NCBI GenBank assembly: GCA_902586495.1
Contig: CACIHQ010000009.1
Span: 1-50,363 of the forward strand
Source: an uncultured Pelagibacteraceae bacterium
Lineage (GTDB): Bacteria; Pseudomonadota; Alphaproteobacteria; Pelagibacterales; Pelagibacteraceae
Reading direction: 5' to 3'
DNA: 50,363 nt
Part shown: positions 1,954 to 12,076 of the stretch, piece after piece
Layout of the letters: each line of letters begins with the position of its first letter
Numbering within the stretch: the stretch's first letter is position 1
The notes under the pieces: generated by a model
The model's database searches: none
What the model was told of the DNA's origin: nothing
The model's input: only the letters and a program-made list of their open reading frames with translations
Program-made: the position numbers and the translations under genes

Positions 1954-2727
1954 ATGCAATTAGTTATTTTAGCTGGTGGAAAGGGTAGTAGAATTTCGGA
2001 GGAAACAATTTCAAAACCTAAGCCATTAATAGAAATAGGTGGAATGCCAATTATTTGGCATATTATGAAATACTATTCATGTTATGGAGTTAGAGAATTT
2101 ATTATTTGTTGTGGTTACAAAGGATATTTGCTCAAAGAGTTCTTTGCCAATTATTTATTACATTCCTCAGATGTAATTATAAATACTTCTAATAGAAAAA
2201 TTAAAGTTTTAAAAAAATCGACTGAAAGCTGGAAAATTTCCTTCATAGACACTGGGGAAGATACGAATACTGCAGGAAGAATTCTGAAAATCAAAAAATA
2301 CGTAAATGAAAACTTCTTACTTACTTATGGGGATGGTCTTAGTAATGTGAATATTAAAAATCTTATTAAGTTTCATGGAAAAGGAAAAAAAATAGTTAGT
2401 TTGACAGGAATACAGCCCACTGGAAGATTTGGAGCTTTAAAAATTTTGCGAAAATCTGATCTAGTAGAAAATTTTGTTGAAAAACCTGATGGAGACGGTG
2501 GTTGGGTTAATGGAGGTTTTTTTGTTTTTAATAAAAAAATATTCAATTATATAAAAAATGATCAATCAATTTTAGAGACAGATGTTCTACCTAAATTAGC
2601 AAAAAATAAACAAGTATCAGTTTATAAACATAAAAGTTTTTGGTATGCGATGGATACTTTAAGGGATAAAAATTATTTACTACATCTTTGGAATTCAAAT
2701 AAAGCTCCATGGAAAATATGGAAATAA
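1954..2727 (+). CDS. rfbF: Glucose-1-phosphate cytidylyltransferase
   Basis: Makes CDP-glucose from CTP and glucose 1-phosphate, the first step of CDP-linked 6-deoxy and 3,6-dideoxy sugar pathways, in the cytoplasm. The 257-residue length matches RfbF/DdhA. The nucleotidyltransferase signature LAGGKGSR is at residues 6-13, followed by SKPKPLIEIGGMPI (20-33) with the family lysines. The metal-binding aspartate is D127 in TYGDGLS, and VEKPDGDGGWVNGGFFV lies further on, typical of RfbF rather than RmlA or GalU. It is the first gene of a five-gene plus-strand operon; the CDP-glucose dehydratase starts 3 bp after its stop. A TATAAT lies only 6 bp before the ATG, so the transcript may have little or no leader. 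The identification is firm. Confidence 0.93.
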   Translation: MQLVILAGGKGSRISEETISKPKPLIEIGGMPIIWHIMKYYSCYGVREFIICCGYKGYLLKEFFANYLLHSSDVIINTSNRKIKVLKKSTESWKISFIDTGEDTNTAGRILKIKKYVNENFLLTYGDGLSNVNIKNLIKFHGKGKKIVSLTGIQPTGRFGALKILRKSDLVENFVEKPDGDGGWVNGGFFVFNKKIFNYIKNDQSILETDVLPKLAKNKQVSVYKHKSFWYAMDTLRDKNYLLHLWNSNKAPWKIWK

Positions 2728-2730
2728 TTA

Positions 2731-3789
2731 GTGAGAAAAAATTTTTGGAAAAATAAAAGAGTTTTGATAACCGGGCATACAGGATTCAAAGGCGCATGGC
2801 TTTCAATTTGGTTAAAAATGCTTGGAGCAAAAGTTACTGGTATTGCATTACCTCCTTCAAATAAAAGAAATATCTTTACAATTACAAATTTAAAAAAGAA
2901 AATATATAAAAGTATTTTTTTAAATATAAAAAACAAAAAAAAACTTGAAAAAGCAGTTGTTTCATCAAAACCGCAAATACTTTTTCATTTAGCTGCACAA
3001 CCATTAGTAATTGAATCTTATAAAGATCCAATAAATACAGTAGAAACAAATATTTTGGGGACAGCCAACTTACTGGAAATATGTAAAAATATTAAATCCT
3101 TAAAATCAATCTTAATAGTGACTACCGACAAAGTTTATTCAAATCAAAATAAAAAAAAATTTTTTAAAGAAAATGATAAACTCGGTGGAGATGATATTTA
3201 TAGCTATTCAAAAGTTTCAGTAGAGATGTTAGTTAAATCTTATAGGAAATTATTTTTTAGAAATAACAAAAACATTTTGACCTTGAGAGCAGGAAATGTC
3301 ATTGGTGGAGGTGATTGGTCTAAAAATAGATTAATTCCAGATTTTATTAGATCTTATGAAAAAAAAATTAACTTTATAATTAGAAATCCTAAACATGTGC
3401 GACCTTGGCAACATGTTATTGATTGTCTATATGGATATATATTAGCTGTTGAAAAAACCTATTTTAAAAAAATTAAAAATTTGGAAACAATAAATTTTGG
3501 TCCAGCTAGCAAAAATAATCGTACAGTCAAAAATGTTACTGATATAATGGTTAAAAGATATAACTTTGAATCAAAAATAAAATTTAATATTAAAGATTCA
3601 AAATTTTTTGAAAAAAGATTTTTGAGACTAAATAGTTCACTAGCAAAAAATTTAATTGGATGGTCATCAAAAATAGATCTAAATGAGTCTGTATTATTAA
3701 CATTAAAATGGTATGAAGAATTTTTTAAAAAAAATAATATGTATAAATACACTTGTCATCAAATTAAAAATTATATATCAAAAAATTAA
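2731..3789 (+). CDS. rfbG: CDP-glucose 4,6-dehydratase
   Basis: Converts CDP-glucose to CDP-4-keto-6-deoxyglucose with bound NAD. It is a short-chain dehydrogenase/epimerase-family enzyme of 352 residues, the normal RfbG/DdhB length. The Rossmann motif is ITGHTGFKGAWL (G15xxG18xxG21). The catalytic Tyr-x3-Lys is Y157...K161 in DIYSYSKVS, with the preceding TTDKVYS (131-137) in place of the usual TSDKVY. RAGNVIGGGDW and RPWQHVIDCL in the C-terminal half are typical of this family. The start is a GTG 3 bp after the rfbF stop, and the stop codon overlaps the next ATG by one base (TAATG), suggesting translational coupling. Confidence 0.93.
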   Translation: MRKNFWKNKRVLITGHTGFKGAWLSIWLKMLGAKVTGIALPPSNKRNIFTITNLKKKIYKSIFLNIKNKKKLEKAVVSSKPQILFHLAAQPLVIESYKDPINTVETNILGTANLLEICKNIKSLKSILIVTTDKVYSNQNKKKFFKENDKLGGDDIYSYSKVSVEMLVKSYRKLFFRNNKNILTLRAGNVIGGGDWSKNRLIPDFIRSYEKKINFIIRNPKHVRPWQHVIDCLYGYILAVEKTYFKKIKNLETINFGPASKNNRTVKNVTDIMVKRYNFESKIKFNIKDSKFFEKRFLRLNSSLAKNLIGWSSKIDLNESVLLTLKWYEEFFKKNNMYKYTCHQIKNYISKN

Positions 3790-4982
3790 TGAAGATAAAT
3801 TATGGTAAAAATATATACGACAAAAACGAGATTCATGCTGTTTTGAATACTTTAAAGAGTGGAACTCAAATGGGCCACTCGGTTAAAAAATTTGAAAAAA
3901 ATATATCTGACATTTTTTCAAAAAAGTATGGATTAATGGTTAACTCTGGATCATCAGCGCTAATACTTGCTTTGAAAGTTTTGAACTTGAAAAGAGGTTC
4001 TGAGGTAATCACACCGTGTTTAAATTTTGGTACAGCGGTCTCATCTATAATATTATCAAATTTAAAACCTGTATTTGTTGATTGTAGATTTGAAACTCTT
4101 CAAGTAGATCCTGATAAAATATTAAATAAAATTTCAAATAAAACAAAAGTTCTTTTAATTCCAAATTTAATTGGGAATATTCCAGACTGGATTAGAATAA
4201 AAAAAATTGCAAATAAGTATAATTTAAAAATAATAGAAGACTCTGCTGATACCTTAGGAGCAAAAATAAAAAATAATTCTACTGGTAAATTTAGCGACAT
4301 ATCAATAACAAGTTTTTATGGTTCTCATGTTATTAGTTGTGCTGGTAATGGTGGAATGTTTCTCACTAACAATCTCAAATATTATGAAAAAGCTAAGGTT
4401 CTTAGAAGTTGGGGCCGAATGTCTAGCTTAATAGAGGATTCAGAAAATATAAAAAAAAGACTTGGTATTAGACTAAAAGGTTTTGATTATGATCGAAAAT
4501 TCGTATTTTCTGAAATTGGGTATAATTTTGAACCCTCAGAAATAGGCGCTTCTTTTGGTTTAGAACAGCTTAAAAAACTTAAAAAATTTTCAAAAATTAG
4601 AATTAGAAATTTTAACTGTCATTTCAATTTTTTCAAAAAATTGAGTAAATATTTTATTGTTCCAAAAATAAATAAATATGTTAAGACAAATTTTTTAGCA
4701 TATCCAATAATTCTTAATAAAAATATAAATTTTAACAGAAAAGAATTTCAAATATATTTGGAAGAAAAAGGAATTCAAACTAGACCAATTTTTTCTGGAA
4801 ACATATTAAGACATCCAGCTTTCCATTCATTAATATCAAGAAAAAATAAATTAAATGAATTTAAAAATTCTGATTTTATTATGAAAAATGGTCTACTTAT
4901 TGGATGTCATCAAGGACTTACCCTCAAAGATATTTCATATATACACTCCACTATTATAAAATTTAAAAAAATAAAAGCATGA
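3789..4982 (+). CDS. PLP-dependent sugar 3-dehydratase (ColD/RfbH-like)
   Basis: A DegT/DnrJ/EryC1-fold enzyme of 397 residues, expected to remove the C3 hydroxyl of the 4-keto-6-deoxy sugar. The PLP aspartate is D151 in IIEDSADTLGA. Where aminotransferases carry the Schiff-base lysine, this protein has a histidine, H180, in SFYGSHVISCAGNGG. That substitution marks the 3-dehydratases (RfbH/E1 and ColD). RfbH/DdhC enzymes also hold a [2Fe-2S] cluster through a Cys-rich segment after RxWGR; here RSWGRMSSLIEDSENIKKRL has no cysteine. In this respect, and in FVFSEIGYNFEPSEIGASFG and GIQTRPIFSGN, it resembles ColD, which needs no reductase partner. No DdhD-like reductase is present in the window. 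Product: probably CDP-4-keto-3,6-dideoxyglucose (inferred). It overlaps the next gene by 4 bp (ATGA). Confidence 0.82.
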   Translation: MKINYGKNIYDKNEIHAVLNTLKSGTQMGHSVKKFEKNISDIFSKKYGLMVNSGSSALILALKVLNLKRGSEVITPCLNFGTAVSSIILSNLKPVFVDCRFETLQVDPDKILNKISNKTKVLLIPNLIGNIPDWIRIKKIANKYNLKIIEDSADTLGAKIKNNSTGKFSDISITSFYGSHVISCAGNGGMFLTNNLKYYEKAKVLRSWGRMSSLIEDSENIKKRLGIRLKGFDYDRKFVFSEIGYNFEPSEIGASFGLEQLKKLKKFSKIRIRNFNCHFNFFKKLSKYFIVPKINKYVKTNFLAYPIILNKNINFNRKEFQIYLEEKGIQTRPIFSGNILRHPAFHSLISRKNKLNEFKNSDFIMKNGLLIGCHQGLTLKDISYIHSTIIKFKKIKA

Positions 4983-6775
4983 ATCTTTCAGATTACGTTT
5001 TAAAATTTCTTAAGCAAAGAAAGGTCAAAGAAGTTTTCTTGATTACTGGTGGAGCAATTTCTTTTATGATTGATAGTTTTTCAAGAACAAGAGGTATCAA
5101 ATATGTTTGTGTTGGACATGAACAAGCAGCGGCAATGATGGCAGACTCTTATTCAAGAATAGGACCAAATTTATCTTGCACTATGGTTACGTCTGGTCCA
5201 GGAGCAACAAATTTGATTACTGGAATTGCATGCTCTTGGTTTGACTCTATACCTGCTTTGCATATTACAGGACAAGTAAATAGTTATGAAAAACAAGGTG
5301 CACAAAAAGGTACAAAAAATACAAGACAGATAGGATTTCAAGAAACAGATATTGTATCCATATCTAAACCAATTACAAAATTTTCTTATCAATTAAAGAA
5401 CCCAAATGAAATCAGATATGTTTTAGAAAAGGCTTGCTATCTTGCAAAAAGCGGAAGACCTGGTCCAGTTCTCATTGATATACCTATGAATTTTCAGAAA
5501 GTGAAAATTAAAGAAAAAAAATTGAAGAGATTTAAAATTCCAAAAAAAAATTTTGATAATTCAATATTAAAACAAAATATAAAAAAGATTATTAATATAC
5601 TTAAAAATTCATCTCGCCCTATAGTTTTGTTAGGCGGCGGAATTAAAATTTCTAGAACTCAGAGTAAAATTCGCAATTTTCTTAATAAGTTAAATATACC
5701 TGTAGTAACTACATGGAGTGGAGTAGATTTAATTGACCACGACAATTTTAATTATGTTGGAAACATTGGAGTCTATGGCTCAAGAGCTGCTAATTTCGCA
5801 GTTCAAAATTCTGATTTTCTTTTAACTCTAGGAAGTCGTCTAGATACAAGAATTACTGGCGGAGCACCAAATACTTTTGCAAGAGATGCAAAGGTTATTT
5901 CGGTAGATATTGATAAAAATGAATTATCAAAAAAAAGAGGTTTAAATCTACATTTAAAGATTAACTCTAACCTTGTGGAATTTTTTGAAATTTTTGATAA
6001 GGAAAATTTTACTTATAAAAATGAAAGTTGGTTAATTAAATGTTCAAATTGGAAAAAAAAATACCCAATTGTTAAAAAAGAATATTATTTACAAAAAAAA
6101 TATGTAAATCCTTACGTATTTATTAATGAACTTTCAAAAATTTTAAATAATAAATCTATTATAATAGCAGATGATGGAGGCCATTTAACATGGACAATTC
6201 AAGCTTTTAAAGTAAAAAATGGTCAAAAATTATTTTCTGCATTTGGAAATTCTCCGATGGGTTATGCATTTCCAGCTAGCATAGGTGCATCAATTGCAAA
6301 CAACAAAAGCAAAGTGATTTGTATTGACGGAGATGGCAGTATTCAGATGAATATTCAGGAATTACAAACCGTAGTTAATAATAAACTTCCTATTAAGATA
6401 ATAGTGATGAACAATAATGGTTATGGAATTATTAAACAATTTCAAGAGCTATATTTGAATAAAAGATATGAGGCCACAACTCCAAAAACTGGAGTTGTGA
6501 ATCCCAATTTTAAAGCTGTATCTAGAGCATACGGTGTCAATTACACTTTAATATCTAATCATAAAAATTTGAAAAAAAAATTAATAAAATCTATAAAAAG
6601 TAGAAATCCTGAATTCATTGAGGTTTTATTAAAACCTGATCAGAAAATAGTTCCTAAGCTTCAATTTGGAAATCCTATTGAAGATCTTTCACCATTATTA
6701 TCTAGAAAAGAGTTTAATAAGAATATGATAATCAAAACTGTAAATAAAAATAGAAAAATTTTAGAGGCTAACTAG
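4979..6775 (+). CDS. Thiamine-diphosphate enzyme, acetolactate-synthase-like, candidate YerE-type sugar acyl-transferring enzyme
   Basis: A 598-residue three-domain ThDP enzyme. The N-terminal domain has the catalytic glutamate E48 in VGHEQAAAMMADSYSR and VTSGPGATNLITGIACSW. The central domain (about 190-345) has LLGGGIKIS. The C-terminal domain has the ThDP/Mg motif IDGDGSIQMNIQEL (449-462) ending in MNNNGYGI (477-484). The overall pattern is like the large subunit of acetolactate synthase. No regulatory subunit or ilvC gene is nearby; instead it overlaps the sugar 3-dehydratase gene by 4 bp. In Yersinia the related enzyme YerE uses pyruvate to put a two-carbon acetyl branch on C4 of CDP-4-keto-3,6-dideoxyglucose (yersiniose pathway). 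A similar role is inferred from operon context; a true acetolactate synthase or another C-C ligase cannot be excluded from sequence alone. Confidence 0.75.
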   Translation: MNLSDYVLKFLKQRKVKEVFLITGGAISFMIDSFSRTRGIKYVCVGHEQAAAMMADSYSRIGPNLSCTMVTSGPGATNLITGIACSWFDSIPALHITGQVNSYEKQGAQKGTKNTRQIGFQETDIVSISKPITKFSYQLKNPNEIRYVLEKACYLAKSGRPGPVLIDIPMNFQKVKIKEKKLKRFKIPKKNFDNSILKQNIKKIINILKNSSRPIVLLGGGIKISRTQSKIRNFLNKLNIPVVTTWSGVDLIDHDNFNYVGNIGVYGSRAANFAVQNSDFLLTLGSRLDTRITGGAPNTFARDAKVISVDIDKNELSKKRGLNLHLKINSNLVEFFEIFDKENFTYKNESWLIKCSNWKKKYPIVKKEYYLQKKYVNPYVFINELSKILNNKSIIIADDGGHLTWTIQAFKVKNGQKLFSAFGNSPMGYAFPASIGASIANNKSKVICIDGDGSIQMNIQELQTVVNNKLPIKIIVMNNNGYGIIKQFQELYLNKRYEATTPKTGVVNPNFKAVSRAYGVNYTLISNHKNLKKKLIKSIKSRNPEFIEVLLKPDQKIVPKLQFGNPIEDLSPLLSRKEFNKNMIIKTVNKNRKILEAN

Positions 6776-6778
6776 AAG

Positions 6779-8512
6779 ATGACGCATAACATTTCATATA
6801 ATGATTACTCTAAAAGTGTAACAAGTTTCTTTAAATTTTTGAAAAATAGCAAGAATTATAAAGAACTAACACTAAGATCAATTAAAGTTAAAAATAAAGA
6901 TGATTTCTTATTAGTTCCAATCAGTAAAATTCATTTAAATGACACTAATGTTATAAAAAAACTCTGTGAGTGGAGAAATAAAAACTCAAATTTTTTCGTT
7001 CAAAAAAATAAAACAAATTTTAACAGAACTAAAAAGTGGATGAAAAATAATTTGATAGATGTTGAGGATAAAATTCTTTTTTTAGTAGTAAGAGATGGAG
7101 GACACCCAATAGGTCATATAGGGCTAGCTAATTGTTTAAACAAAAAAATGCAATTTGAAATTGATAATGTAATCAAAGGTGAAAAAGATGAAAACAAAGA
7201 GGTATTTTCAGTAGTAATACAAGAGCTAATTAGATGGGCAAGTCAAATATTTTATGTAAATAGTTTCTTCTTAAGAGTGTTAAATACTAATGATAGAGCA
7301 ATTAATTTTTACAAAAAAAATAATTTTAAAATCATTAAGAGCAAAAACAATAATAAGAATATTAAAGAGCCATATTTAATAATGAGTTACAAAGAAAGAC
7401 AAAATGGAAATAAATTTATATTAACCGCTGGACCTTCTATTTCTCAAAAAGAAGTTTCTTATGTTAATGATGCTGTCAGCAAAGGATGGAATAACAATGC
7501 TAATGATTATTTAAAAAAGTTAGAAAAAAAATTTTGCAGATATTTAAATTGTAAATATGCAATACCTACATCTAGTTGTACTGGCGCAATGCACATTGCA
7601 TTGATGGCACTAGGTATAAAAAAAGGTGATGAAGTTATCCTTCCAAACATAACTTGGGTTGCAACAGCTAATGCAATAGCTTATGTAAATGCAACACCAA
7701 TATTCGCAGATATAGATTTAAAAGATTGGGGAATTGATGTTGGTAAAATTGAAAAACTGATTACGAAAAAAACAAAAGCAATTATGCCAGTACATTTATA
7801 TGGTCAACCATGTAATATGGAAAATATTATTAAAATTGCAAAAAAATATAATTTATATGTTATTGAGGACGCTGCGCCAGCAATTGGTGCCAAATTTAAA
7901 AATAAAAAATGCGGTACATTTGGTGATTTTGGAGCATTTAGCTTTCAGGGAGCAAAATTACTCGTCTCTGGTGAGGGAGGCATGTTGGTTACAAATAATA
8001 AAAAATTATATTTAAAGGCATTAAAAATTTCTAATCAAGGACGAAATTATAAAAAAACTTTTTTTATCGATAACTTGGGTGTCAAATATAAAATGTCGAA
8101 TATTCAAGCTGCACTAGCTTTAGGTCAGTTAGAAAGAATAGATGCACTGATAGCTTTAAAAAGAAGAATTTTTGGATGGTATAATAAATATTTAAGTAAT
8201 TTAAAGTGTGTATCTCTTAATCATGAAGTACAAAATACAAAAAGTATCTATTGGATGTCTAGTATAATTCTAAATAAAAAAGCAAAAATAAAAAGAGACA
8301 AACTTATGAAGATTTTATTAAAAAATAAGATAGATAGTAGACCTGTTTTTCCAGAGTTAAGTAGTTTTAAATATTGGAATAAAAAAAATGTAAGTTCTCT
8401 AAAAAATTCTAAATATTTATCTTCAAATGCAATTAATCTTCCGAGCGGTGTTTGTCTGAAAGAGGATCAAATTAAAAAAGTTTGTAAAATAATAAAAGCT
8501 AATTTGACCTAA
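6779..8512 (+). CDS. GNAT acetyltransferase fused to PLP-dependent sugar aminotransferase
   Basis: One 577-residue chain with two enzymes. Residues about 42-205 are a GNAT domain of the PseH/RimJ-like type: CEWRNKNSNFFVQ, KWMKNNL, LFLVVRDGGHPIGHIGL and the C-terminal NDRAINFYKKNNFKII. Residues about 213-575 are a DegT/DnrJ/EryC1 aminotransferase close to perosamine synthase: PTSSCTGAMHIALMALGI, D364 in VIEDAAPAIGA and the Schiff-base lysine K393 in SFQGAKLLVSGEGGM. The first 40 residues are not assigned. Expected chemistry: transfer an amino group to a sugar ketone, then N-acylate it. It lies 3 bp after the ThDP enzyme gene and ends the operon. The two activities are more usually on separate genes. 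Which ketone (C4 or the branch carbonyl) is used is not shown. Confidence 0.8.
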   Translation: MTHNISYNDYSKSVTSFFKFLKNSKNYKELTLRSIKVKNKDDFLLVPISKIHLNDTNVIKKLCEWRNKNSNFFVQKNKTNFNRTKKWMKNNLIDVEDKILFLVVRDGGHPIGHIGLANCLNKKMQFEIDNVIKGEKDENKEVFSVVIQELIRWASQIFYVNSFFLRVLNTNDRAINFYKKNNFKIIKSKNNNKNIKEPYLIMSYKERQNGNKFILTAGPSISQKEVSYVNDAVSKGWNNNANDYLKKLEKKFCRYLNCKYAIPTSSCTGAMHIALMALGIKKGDEVILPNITWVATANAIAYVNATPIFADIDLKDWGIDVGKIEKLITKKTKAIMPVHLYGQPCNMENIIKIAKKYNLYVIEDAAPAIGAKFKNKKCGTFGDFGAFSFQGAKLLVSGEGGMLVTNNKKLYLKALKISNQGRNYKKTFFIDNLGVKYKMSNIQAALALGQLERIDALIALKRRIFGWYNKYLSNLKCVSLNHEVQNTKSIYWMSSIILNKKAKIKRDKLMKILLKNKIDSRPVFPELSSFKYWNKKNVSSLKNSKYLSSNAINLPSGVCLKEDQIKKVCKIIKANLT

Positions 8513-8519
8513 TCATTAT

Positions 8520-9455
8520 TTAAAAATTAATTTTTTCCTTAACATTTACCTCAATATCTTTTTTTAATTGATTATGAATAGAAGAAATATACTCACCCAT
8601 AAAACCTAATACCAGAAGTTGTAAACCAGAAAATATTAAAACTGATATTAATAGTGTGGGCATGCCTTTTTCTAAATCATTTTGGAAAAATAAATTATAA
8701 AAAAATGAATAAAAACCATAAATTATTGAAAATATTGATACAAACATCCCAGTGTATAATATAAATCGAAATGGTGTATCACTGGCTGATATTAAACCTT
8801 TCATTGCTGAACTTATGTAATCTTTTATAAATTCTTTTGATTTACCTATTTCTCTTTTTTTCCATTTATAATTAATGGATTTATAATTGTCACTGAATTC
8901 GAATGCTAGGGTTCTAATAAATGGAAAATTATCTTTTATAGATATCATCTTATTGATAATTTTTCGATCAACCAGTTGAAAATCTGAGACATTTAATGGA
9001 ATATTATTTTTTGAAAACTTCTTGAGCAGAATGTAAAAAAAATTTCTTACAGATTTCATCAGAAAAAATTCATCACGCTCCATCCTACAACCTACCACAA
9101 AATCAGCACCCTCATTCCACTTCTTAACTAATTCAGGAATCTTTTCAGGTGGATCTTGCATATCAACAGGATAAAATAATAAAACGGCATCTCCAGAACT
9201 ATTTTTAATACCATTAAATGTTGATCTAACTGAACCGTAATTTTTTGCATTTAAAATAATTTTTATTTTTTTATTATTTTGAGCAATTTCTCTTAAGATT
9301 TTAATAGTATTTTCGTTTGAGTTGTTGTCACAAATTATATGCTCATAATCATAATCACTTAATTCATTATCAAATAGTTTTTTGATTTCTTTAGTACAGT
9401 TATATAACGCCGTTTCTTCATTATAGCATGGTGTTATAATTGATATTTTTTTCAT
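8520..9455 (-). CDS. GT2 polyprenyl-phosphate glycosyltransferase (GtrB/ArnC-like)
   Basis: A 311-residue inner-membrane enzyme expected to load a sugar onto polyprenyl phosphate. The N-terminal GT-A domain starts MKKISIITPCYNEETALYN and has HIICDNNSNENT and the DxD-like PVDMQDPPEKIPEL, then GADFVVGCRMERDE. The C-terminal third has two membrane helices (around 228-255 and 265-290), as in GtrB, ArnC and DPM1-like proteins, and ends in a short basic tail. It converges with the sugar operon, leaving 7 bp between stops. If the two membrane proteins at the left end are GT-C enzymes, this protein could supply their polyprenyl-linked donor. The sugar it uses cannot be told from the sequence. Confidence 0.85.
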   Translation of the reverse strand: MKKISIITPCYNEETALYNCTKEIKKLFDNELSDYDYEHIICDNNSNENTIKILREIAQNNKKIKIILNAKNYGSVRSTFNGIKNSSGDAVLLFYPVDMQDPPEKIPELVKKWNEGADFVVGCRMERDEFFLMKSVRNFFYILLKKFSKNNIPLNVSDFQLVDRKIINKMISIKDNFPFIRTLAFEFSDNYKSINYKWKKREIGKSKEFIKDYISSAMKGLISASDTPFRFILYTGMFVSIFSIIYGFYSFFYNLFFQNDLEKGMPTLLISVLIFSGLQLLVLGFMGEYISSIHNQLKKDIEVNVKEKINF

Positions 9456-9662: not shown

Positions 9663-9928
9663 TCGTATCAACGAAGTTTTTAATGTTAAAAGTCAATTAA
9701 ATCAACACTTAAAAGATTTGATTATTAAAAGGTAATCTTATTGTTTGTTATTTTATAGCTTGTTGTAGACCATTTGTGACTAATCTATCGGTTCGGCTAT
9801 CGGTTCGAGAGTTTGATAAGCTAATATCAAAAAGTAATTCGTAAATATTAAAAAAAAACTTTTATAATCCATTAAAATGAGGAAATTAATAGATTTAATT
9901 TATGTTATTTGTTTATTATACAAAGAAA
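9663..9928. other. Non-coding stretch between tRNA-Thr and the autotransporter gene
   Basis: No credible reading frame is seen here. It must hold promoters for tRNA-Thr (minus) and the autotransporter (plus). At 9785-9808 the 11-mer CTATCGGTTCG occurs twice in tandem, one base apart. AATCTATCGGTT at 9782-9793 recurs downstream of the autotransporter at 12124-12135. I see no recognised RNA, and no integrase or transposase fragment. Confidence 0.5.
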
Positions 9929-12076
9929 ATGTTAAATTATTTTAAGAAAATACTTTCAATATTTCTAATTTTAAATCTAACTTTTGTTAGCTCAGCACAA
10001 GCTGCTGCAACCTTTGTAGATAGTTTTGATGTTAGTACTCAAGATACTCAACCTAGAGGTATTGCTTTTAATAATAATGGAACCAAGATGTTTATAGTAG
10101 GTGATCAAGGAAATGATATAAATTCATATACATTATCAACAGGTTTTGATTTATCAACTGCAACTTTTGATGACATAAATGGAGATGGATCAGGTTTTGA
10201 TATTAGTGGCCAAGATCTTACTCCTCTATATATTAAATTTAATAATGATGGAACCAAGATGTTTGTCTCAGGTAATACTGGTAAAGATATAAATTCATAT
10301 ACCTTATCTACAGGCTTTGATTTATCAACAGCAACTTTTGATGACATAAATGGAAATGGAACAGGTTTTGATATTAGTGATCAAGATGTGCAAACTAGAG
10401 GTATTGCTTTCAACAATGACGGAACGATAATGTTTTACTTAGGTAATTCTGCTTATGATATAAATGTATATACATTATCAACAGGTTTTGATTTATCAAC
10501 TGCAACTTTCAATGACATAAATGGAGATGGATCAGGTTTTGATATTAGTGGTCAAGTAACTGTTCCTAGGGGTATTACTTTTAATAATGATGGAACTAAA
10601 ATGTTTATAGTAAGTGATTTAGGTAATGATATAAGTGAGTATACATTATCAGTAGGCTTTGATTTGACATCAACTGTAACTCATGTAGGAAAGTTTGTTG
10701 TTACTGATCAAGAGACCAATCCTCAAGGTATAGCTTTTAATACAACTGGAACTAAAATGTTTATAGTAGGTAATGCTGGTGATGATATAAATATATATAC
10801 TTTAAGCTGTGCTTTTAAAGTTACTAGCTCAGGAAAATGTGAAGACCCACCAAAAATTAAAGATGTAAGAGGTATAAATGATGCACAAATCAATACTACT
10901 AAAAAGTTTGCTGAAGATACAAGAGTGGCTACTTTTAAAAGACTTGATATTTTGAGAGCAAATAAATACCAAACGAGCGCTCAAAGAATAGAGTTGCTCT
11001 TTCAAAATGAATTATTTAAGAAAATATCGAATAATGTTGCAAGTTCTTCTCAAGCTAAATTCAATCCAATTCAAAAGTTAGATCAGATTTTACCTAATGA
11101 CTGGGAAGCATGGACTGAAGGTAGTATTAGTTTTGGAAAAATTGGTGAGACTTCCTTAAGCTCTGCACAAGATATAGATGGATTTGGTATAACTGTAGGT
11201 GCCGATAAAAAAATGGATGAAGACCAAATATCAGGAGTAGCTTTAAGAGTGGGTAACACTGATGTTGATGTTGGAACCTTTGGTTCTGCAGTTGACACTA
11301 ATGCTTTAAGTTTATCTGTTTATGGGATTAATAGTTTAGAAGACAAGAATTTTTTAAAACATGTTTTTGGAGTTAGTTATTTAGATAGTGATATCGTAAG
11401 GAAAGACGAAGGAAACACTAACACTCATACTGGTGACCGCCAAGGTAAGCAAGTTTTTGGTTCACTTGATATTGGTAGAGAATATGAAGACGGTGACTTA
11501 ACTATTAGTTCAATAGGTAGTATTGATGGAAGTTATACAGCGCTTCATAGCTATACCGAAAGTGGCACTAATCCTATTAGCTATAATGATCAAGATATTA
11601 AATCTTTAATGGCTTCTTTAGGTGTACTAATTGATAGAGATTTTAATTTAGAAAACTCAAATATAAAATCTAGAGTTAATCTTGAATATGGTAAAGAGTT
11701 TACCTCAAACTCTAAAGTAGTAACAAGTTATGTATCAGATAGCGAAAGTTTTGAGTATCAAGCTGATAATGAAAATAGAGATATATACACAGCAGGACTT
11801 GGTTTAGATTTTAAGCATGATCAAGGGTTAACAATTAGTGCAGATTACGAAAGACAGCAAATCAAAGGACACGGCTATATAAATAAATTTACATTATCAA
11901 CCGGCTTTTTATATAGAAAAGAAACAGAGTTAGCATTTGATGTTAGAGAAGATATGACTTCAAATTTTAAAATTTCTAGAACGTTAAATGGTTTTGATCT
12001 GGAGTTTAATTTAGAAAATGATTTTTCTAATCAAGAAAATCATAATGCCAATTTATCTCTGACCAATAATTTTTAA
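9929..12076 (+). CDS. Autotransporter with propeller-like repeat passenger
   Basis: A predicted outer-membrane/surface protein of 715 residues from the ATG at 9929. That start gives a clean signal peptide (MLNYFKKILSIFLILNLTFV, cleavage near SAQA-A); an in-frame ATG at 9902 would add nine residues. The passenger (about 28-295) is built from five or six repeats of about 57 residues with the core GIAFNNDGTKMFIVG and INSYTLSTGFDLSTATF, resembling a beta-propeller of short four-strand units. A cysteine pair and a charged helical linker follow. From about residue 390 to the C-terminus (EAWTEGSISFGKIGE to the final F) alternating beta strands fit an autotransporter beta-barrel. The gene stands alone between the two tRNA-Thr segments. 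The ligand or function is unknown; adhesion or phage/predator interaction would be guesses. Confidence 0.82.
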   Translation: MLNYFKKILSIFLILNLTFVSSAQAAATFVDSFDVSTQDTQPRGIAFNNNGTKMFIVGDQGNDINSYTLSTGFDLSTATFDDINGDGSGFDISGQDLTPLYIKFNNDGTKMFVSGNTGKDINSYTLSTGFDLSTATFDDINGNGTGFDISDQDVQTRGIAFNNDGTIMFYLGNSAYDINVYTLSTGFDLSTATFNDINGDGSGFDISGQVTVPRGITFNNDGTKMFIVSDLGNDISEYTLSVGFDLTSTVTHVGKFVVTDQETNPQGIAFNTTGTKMFIVGNAGDDINIYTLSCAFKVTSSGKCEDPPKIKDVRGINDAQINTTKKFAEDTRVATFKRLDILRANKYQTSAQRIELLFQNELFKKISNNVASSSQAKFNPIQKLDQILPNDWEAWTEGSISFGKIGETSLSSAQDIDGFGITVGADKKMDEDQISGVALRVGNTDVDVGTFGSAVDTNALSLSVYGINSLEDKNFLKHVFGVSYLDSDIVRKDEGNTNTHTGDRQGKQVFGSLDIGREYEDGDLTISSIGSIDGSYTALHSYTESGTNPISYNDQDIKSLMASLGVLIDRDFNLENSNIKSRVNLEYGKEFTSNSKVVTSYVSDSESFEYQADNENRDIYTAGLGLDFKHDQGLTISADYERQQIKGHGYINKFTLSTGFLYRKETELAFDVREDMTSNFKISRTLNGFDLEFNLENDFSNQENHNANLSLTNNF
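10022..10812 (+). repeat. Tandem coding repeats, 171-bp period
   Basis: The segment GATATAAATTC or its close variants begins at 10115, 10286, 10457, 10628 and 10784, so the spacing is 171, 171, 171 and 156 bp (57, 57, 57 and 52 codons). The first three copies are nearly identical at DNA level over about 100 bp, including the stretch encoding DLSTATFDDINGDGSGFDIS; the last two have diverged. High DNA identity points to recent duplication or gene conversion within the passenger. Confidence 0.9.

Follow-up and report, generated by a model that had tools for sequence, protein, structure and literature searches.

A GNAT-DegT fusion closing a SAR11 CDP-sugar operon, and the branched amino sugar that it may finish

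The window analysed here is the whole stretch of 50,363 nucleotides from an uncultured Pelagibacteraceae bacterium (contig CACIHQ010000009.1, assembly GCA_902586495.1). It carries an open reading frame in which an acetyltransferase appears joined to a sugar aminotransferase. The locus raises the question of whether such a protein is genuine and, if so, which sugar would receive its two activities. In the reading that we consider probable, if with some reserve, the fusion completes a CDP-linked amino sugar, branched at C4 and destined for the cell surface, by transaminating the ketone of a branch and then N-acylating the product.

The fusion gene and its operon

The open reading frame (nt 6779..8512, + strand) runs uninterrupted from an ATG and encodes a protein of 577 amino acids. 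Profile searches (Pfam, NCBIfam) and AlphaFold2 folds agree on its nature, confirming it as a genuine GNAT-DegT fusion and upholding a sequence-only reading of the window, according to which a GNAT domain is joined in frame to a complete DegT/DnrJ aminotransferase. Residues 1–205 (nt 6779..7393, +) comprise the GNAT N-acyltransferase domain with an N-terminal helical extension, the GNAT itself spanning about residues 34–209; this part was assigned from Pfam, AlphaFold2, a fold match to PseH, and homology to the C-terminus of an alphaproteobacterial protein (L180) and to a separate gene of Candidatus Levybacteria (L159), both described below. The DegT/DnrJ/EryC1 sugar aminotransferase domain is complete (about residues 213–577; nt 7415..8512, +) and was assigned from Pfam, AlphaFold2 and a fold match to GDP-perosamine synthase. 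The Pfam profile DegT_DnrJ_EryC1 (PF01041) matched residues 220–572 with 370.1 bits (E 1.6e-110, cut-off 19.8, profile positions 2–359 of 360), and Acetyltransf_1 (PF00583) matched residues 82–183 with 26.1 bits (E 1.1e-5, cut-off 20.7). Three NCBIfam models scored under their cut-offs: the PseH equivalog TIGR03585 against residues 59–191 (31.8 bits, cut-off 93.1) and, against the fusion, PseC (240.6 bits, far under 423.5) and the LegC aminotransferase TIGR04181 (326.7 bits, cut-off 420). The PLP lysine K393 (codon at nt 7955–7957, +, within the DegT domain), in FSFQGAK, and D364, in IEDAA, are both intact and located as the sequence-only reading had them, and are kept in all 13 aligned DegTs.

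In the full-length AlphaFold2 model the DegT part mostly has pLDDT values above 90, while residues 1–210 are mostly below 50 because the alignment contained no GNAT rows. The DegT model (residues 211–577) matched GDP-perosamine synthase with Z 53.1 and an rmsd of 1.6 over 366 residues. With the A1 alignment (see below), the GNAT part (residues 1–212) reached a mean pLDDT of 74.6, and its model has a GNAT fold (best Z 15.9; PseH 4ri1, Z 15.5). The domains meet just C-terminal of Met202, a residue common to all 14 aligned GNATs, and the linker is therefore only about 10 residues long.

The fusion is the last gene of a tight five-gene operon (nt 1954–8512; spacings of 3, -1, -4 and 3 nt). The first two genes, both scoring above curated cut-offs, specify a glucose-1-phosphate cytidylyltransferase, which makes CDP-glucose (nt 1954..2727, +; TIGR02623, 367.3 bits, cut-off 300.25), and a CDP-glucose 4,6-dehydratase (nt 2731..3789, +; TIGR02622, 422.1 bits, cut-off 278.45). 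They are followed by an RfbH-like PLP/PMP 3-dehydrase (nt 3789..4982, +; NF011936, 283.7 bits, under the cut-off of 423), the nearest solved relatives of which are E1 (3bcx/3bb8) and then ColD entries, and which has a histidine (H180, in SFYGSH) in place of the catalytic PLP lysine and no Fe-S cysteine motif. The fourth gene (nt 4979..6775, +) specifies a YerE-like, C2-branching thiamine-diphosphate (ThDP) carboligase, assigned by phmmer against solved structures. Its best match (355.5 bits) is 5ahk, deposited as an acetolactate synthase, which we take to be PpYerE. Next come 8rph (314.7 bits), named as JanthE in an excerpt of PMC12188165, and acetolactate synthase isozyme 1 (6lpi, 273.2 bits). 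As 5ahk and 8rph outscore every other chain listed, the gene is closer to YerE-like enzymes than to AHAS, and carboligation onto a ketone acceptor is its putative, YerE-like function.

The yersiniose A pathway consists of CDP-glucose genes, RfbH, YerE and a ketoreduction. The window operon shares with it a CDP-glucose synthase and dehydratase, an RfbH-like dehydrase and a YerE-like ThDP enzyme, and so resembles a yersiniose operon in which the last gene has been replaced. It differs in that its dehydrase lacks the Fe-S cysteine motif, in that Pfam revealed no reductase for a branch ketone among the five operon genes, and in that it ends with an aminotransferase-acyltransferase fusion.

Adjoining the fusion on the opposite strand is a GtrB/ArnC-type polyprenyl-phosphate glycosyltransferase (nt 8520..9455, −; PDB 5eke (sll0501), E 1.2e-38; ArnC 9hwj, E 2.7e-26), the probable user of the CDP-sugar. 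Relatives of this gene occur at 7 of the 11 other GNAT-clade loci and at none of the 14 control loci introduced below. An excerpt of PMC2217521 describes a SAR11 hypervariable region rich in surface-polysaccharide genes. Two neighbours of the operon were also inspected. A hydrophobic protein of 460 amino acids (nt 577–1959, −), adjoining the operon, had no Pfam, NCBIfam or PDB sequence match and is possibly a membrane glycosyltransferase. Further to the right, nt 9902–12,076 (+) encode an autotransporter (PF03797) with internal repeats, a relative of which lies beside DegT genes at another locus (L039).

The segment of the dehydrase that carries three to five cysteines in 83 of 85 aligned RfbH-type sequences has none, a trait that it shares with the rest of a Cys-less RfbH-like subgroup in which the active-site histidine is kept in 18 of 18 members (the window, L150, L154, L180, L036, L250–L253, L157, L160, L161 and the viral loci L061, L067, L115, L124, L128 and L132). 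Such dehydrases may function as ColD does, with no Fe-S cluster. Cysteines are also absent from the dehydrases of L156 and L164, which are of the other RfbH type. The viral members come from a set of IMG/VR loci (L060–L139, the best 80 of 82) that encode YerE-like ThDP enzymes. Among these best 80 loci, an RfbH homologue (E 1e-60 or better) is present in 66 and a cytidylyltransferase in only one; portions of the pathways to branched sugars seem to be carried by phages.

Recurrence of the aminotransferase-acyltransferase pair

When the fusion, or its GNAT half, was used as a single query sequence, no full relative was found among viral contigs (0), in the order (1 of 197 genomes, its own) or in the class (1 of 385, its own). 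A whole-protein search matched 162 of these 197 order-level genomes, the rows examined owing their match to the DegT half, and phage and plasmid records covered the fusion query only in part, none reaching 80%. The pair was nevertheless present at two of the best 80 loci of a genome scan made with the ThDP protein. In L180, from an alphaproteobacterial MAG, DegT and GNAT are fused in the order opposite to that of the window (589 aa), and in L159, from a Candidatus Levybacteria MAG, they are separate genes that overlap by 4 nt. The three pairs share 50–56% identity in the DegT and 30–47% in the GNAT. A profile built from their GNATs (A1) reached relatives that the single-sequence GNAT and fusion searches had not. 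Its matches, with the centre genomes included in each count, numbered 6 among the 281 genomes of L159's class, 5 among the 174 of L180's order, 3 among the 398 of the window's phylum and 2 among the 161 of the window's genus. Nine further pairs were obtained: a fusion of 593 amino acids with the domains arranged as in the window, GNAT before DegT (L245), DegT-GNAT fusions in L250, L251, L252 and L253, and separate DegT and GNAT genes in L246, L247, L248 and L249.

A tree of 60 DegT proteins was reconstructed, comprising 13 partnered by a GNAT and 47 other matches from the study loci (E 1e-40, 85% coverage). Twelve of the 13 GNAT-partnered DegTs, including that of the window, form one group, with an SH-aLRT value of 88 that lies under the tool's threshold of 95. 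The thirteenth, L254, falls outside it, beside a Brachyspira protein. Three loci, L254, L255 and L264, carry a related GNAT outside this context and were excluded from the twelve; in L255 no DegT adjoins the GNAT, in L264 the GNAT lies beside an RmlD-DegT fusion, and both are absent from the DegT tree. A Brachyspira plasmid DegT (about 47% identical) was considered as a relative and rejected, its neighbour being a hexapeptide acetyltransferase and not a GNAT.

Seven of the twelve group members are fused, two with the GNAT first and five with the DegT first, and five are unfused. The opposite orders imply at least two fusion events. Fusion is thus not universal among the homologues. The suggestion of the sequence-only reading that the fusion could mark the pathway elsewhere was borne out, the GNAT profile having recovered the pair mostly in the company of CDP-sugar genes and a ThDP carboligase.

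Carboligases beside the pair and the site of amination

A ThDP carboligase is present in the clusters of 10 of the 12 group members, and is of two types. Five are YerE-type (the window, L159, L180, L253 and L245, in the last case at a distance of about 8 kb, in L256), and five are split transketolase pairs (L246, L247, L248, L250 and L251, which reaches the contig end). No ThDP gene was found in the stretches read around L252 (about 17–26 kb on each side) and L249 (about 22 kb). For comparison, 14 SAR11 DegT loci (L034–L047), hand-picked from the whole-protein matches, served as controls, and the count was limited to the nine loci found with the GNAT profile, since the window, L159 and L180 were either the start of the search or finds of the ThDP scan. 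A carboligase occurs at seven of these nine and at one of the 14 controls (Fisher p 0.001), or at six of nine (p 0.005) without L245, the carboligase of which was seen only on a wider reading that was given likewise to L252 and L249 but not to the controls; these p values should be read as no more than indicative, since every control is SAR11 whereas 11 of the 12 loci in the GNAT clade belong to other organisms. The single control with a carboligase, L046, has a long transketolase-like open reading frame.

Each of the three DegT subgroups with more than one member includes both carboligase types (YerE-type in L253 and L180 versus split transketolase in L250 and L251; L159 versus L246 and L247; L245 versus L248), from which it appears that the carboligase has been exchanged while the pair stayed. 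The simplest reading of two types beside the same pair is that the aminotransferase takes the branch ketone left by either, and the exchange also suggests that the split transketolase-type enzymes do what the YerE-type enzymes do. An excerpt of PMC12247030 notes that the split transketolases put forward for branched-sugar formation have not been characterised in vitro, and mentions 13 more putative ones, every one from Streptomycetes. L250 and L251 are small clusters, both cut by contig ends, and neither showed an identifiable sugar reductase, one L251 open reading frame of 345 amino acids being left unassigned.

The slot occupied by the fusion is filled differently in three related SAR11 operons, where an Epimerase-fold SDR directly follows the ThDP gene. 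L154 encodes CDPct, CDPdh, an RfbH-like dehydrase (71%), a ThDP enzyme (59%), the SDR and a GT2; L140/L152 encode CDPct, CDPdh, RfbH, a ThDP enzyme (63%) and the SDR; and L141 encodes RfbH, a ThDP enzyme (49%), the SDR and a GT2. Among the best 80 loci of the ThDP scan, six genome loci have a ThDP enzyme 59–72% identical to that of the window, and only L152 and L154 show the SDR in this slot. In L150, where the dehydrase (75%) and ThDP enzyme (72%) are closest to those of the window, the ThDP gene is not directly followed by a gene on its own strand, and an SDR comes next on the opposite strand; in L151, L153 and L158 (ThDP enzyme 63–65%) the remaining operon genes are not alongside. The neighbours vary at eight further SAR11 loci (L142–L149; ThDP 37–45%). 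An SDR is the type of gene expected to act on the product of the carboligase; according to PMC4753412, the acetyl branch at C4 of yersiniose undergoes ketoreduction, an enzyme step that was then uncharacterised.

The sequences themselves show the domains and the operon, the repeated association of the pair with such genes elsewhere, and an SDR occupying the slot in three related operons. A route can be proposed from them, in which we infer every substrate, the order of reactions, the donor of the acyl group and the glycan finally made. Glucose 1-phosphate would be converted to CDP-glucose (nt 1954–2727) and this to CDP-4-keto-6-deoxyglucose (nt 2731–3789), after which C3 would be deoxygenated by the RfbH-like enzyme without Fe-S cysteines (nt 3789–4982). 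The YerE-like ThDP enzyme (nt 4979–6775) would then transfer an acyl group to the C4 ketone from an alpha-keto acid, the simplest case being acetyl supplied by pyruvate, giving a tertiary alcohol at C4 and a ketone in the branch. Transamination of the branch ketone would fall to the DegT half of the fusion and acylation of the resulting amine to the GNAT half, producing a CDP-3,6-dideoxy-4-C-(1-acylaminoethyl)hexose, which the adjoining GtrB/ArnC-like enzyme may pass to polyprenyl phosphate for export. Excerpts of PMC12247030 assign YerE-like enzymes to the subclass of decarboxylases whose members join an acyl donor to an isolated ketone, describe the addition of acetyl to CDP-3,6-dideoxy-4-ketoglucose by YerE, and state that a ThDP-derived branch ketone can be either reduced or transaminated, the latter in the case of kibdelomycin. 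Successive amination and N-acylation, as put forward in the sequence-only reading, is the best-supported reading of a pair that is fused in opposite orders or encoded by overlapping or nearby genes. The substrate is likely to be the side-chain ketone left by the upstream ThDP enzyme and not an ordinary 4-keto sugar.

An alternative that we hold to be unlikely, but deserving of attention, places the amination on the ring. The DegT half would act in the manner of a perosamine synthase on C4 of CDP-4-keto-3,6-dideoxyglucose, the GNAT half would complete a 4-acylamino-3,4,6-trideoxyhexose, and the ThDP enzyme would use that pool as well, to make a separate, branched sugar. The solved structures nearest to the DegT half are GDP-perosamine synthases (Z 52.8 to 53.1, one entry with GDP-3-deoxyperosamine), which install their amine at ring C4, and this likeness of fold keeps ring amination alive. 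The two group members with the pair and no ThDP gene in the stretch read (L252 and L249) fit it as well, as does control L036, where CDPct, CDPdh, an RfbH-like gene and a DegT (45%) occur with no carboligase. Set against these, C4 amination would remove the very 4-ketone that the carboligase needs, carboligases of two unrelated types accompany the pair in ten of the twelve clusters, and the slot of the fusion holds an SDR in the three related SAR11 operons.

Amination of the branch ketone, if general to the group, would mean that undescribed surface sugars, CDP-3,6-dideoxy-4-C-(1-acylaminoalkyl)hexoses ('amino-yersinioses'), occur in SAR11, other Alphaproteobacteria and CPR bacteria, and that they are made by a dedicated pair, fused at least twice in opposite orders, which accepts branches from two unrelated families of ThDP carboligases; the case for this wider proposal is evenly balanced. 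The finding provides a genetic signature, open to testing, for N-acylated sugars with aminoalkyl branches in the glycans of uncultured bacteria, and the two fusion orders make a bifunctional enzyme available for in vitro study.

The GNAT half and comparable enzymes

Acylation by the window copy is less certain than amination. Its motif A reads KEVFSVV, where most relatives have a GIMTSA-like sequence, and the motif-A glycine, part of the acyl-CoA loop of GNATs, is missing from the window and from L254 while being present in 12 of the 13 GNATs other than the window's. The C-terminal segment is also shorter than in most relatives, and the branch in the GNAT tree, which is poorly resolved, is long (3.02). 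From these features the catalytic competence of the domain is not assured, the loss of the glycine weakening the claim of activity but leaving that of a GNAT fold unaffected. That the half is degenerate or structural, so that the fusion acts only as an aminotransferase, is nonetheless doubtful: the predicted fold matches many acetyltransferases at Z ~15, W87, A174 and Y178 are among the residues common to all 14 aligned GNATs, and the domain is still fused, in frame, in a small genome. Most improbable of all is an assembly or sequencing error merging two genes, for although the genome is a draft (1.05 Mb, 79.5% complete, 30 contigs) and no second copy of the fusion was seen in the genomes searched at the order, class, phylum and genus levels, the assembled open reading frame has no stop or frameshift between the domains, the junction directly follows the final GNAT strand, and six other assemblies contain a homologous pair in fused form, with the same order in L245 and the opposite order in five.

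The closest parallel to the proposed chemistry is amycolose, the sole comparable sugar encountered. As described in excerpts of PMC12247030 and PMC10055692, this alpha-aminoethyl branched sugar of kibdelomycin and amycolamicin has a ThDP-installed C2 branch, the ketone of which is transaminated and the amine N-acylated, as is proposed for the window. Amycolose differs in having its branch at C3, attributed to an alphaKADH2 enzyme, and in belonging to an actinomycete antibiotic, whereas the window sugar would be CDP-linked, branched at C4, made with a GNAT and specified by bacterial surface-sugar clusters. Amination of C4 followed by N-acetylation by PseC/PseH and PglE/PglD likewise pairs an aminotransferase with an N-acetyltransferase, as the window pairs a DegT with one, and PseH is itself a GNAT; those pairs, however, are separate proteins that act on UDP-sugars, and the window protein scores far under the PseC and PseH cut-offs (see above). 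Among open-licence PMC papers, nothing on point was found for a DegT-GNAT fusion, and only amycolose for a 1-aminoethyl or acetamidoethyl branched sugar. PMC9614988 describes a giant-virus aminotransferase and an acetyltransferase that are each fused to other partners and not to one another.

Other SAR11 DegT fusions were considered as relatives and rejected because of their partners, which are a formyltransferase (L037), CBS domains (L038, L041) or RmlD-type domains (L045, L264). L037 (nt 6601–8502), from another family of the SAR11 order, carries N-formyltransferase domains N-terminal to the DegT, and represents a parallel joining of amination with N-acyl transfer; it differs from the window in having a formyltransferase and not a GNAT, and no YerE or transketolase-pair match was found in the 16 kb read. 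The CBS fusions lie at L038:1591–3057 and L041:6009–7460, and the RmlD-type domains, found on either side of the DegT, at L045:1840–3885 and L264:5181–7061. A further fusion, at L161:2654–4531, joins a DegT to a hexapeptide acetyltransferase.
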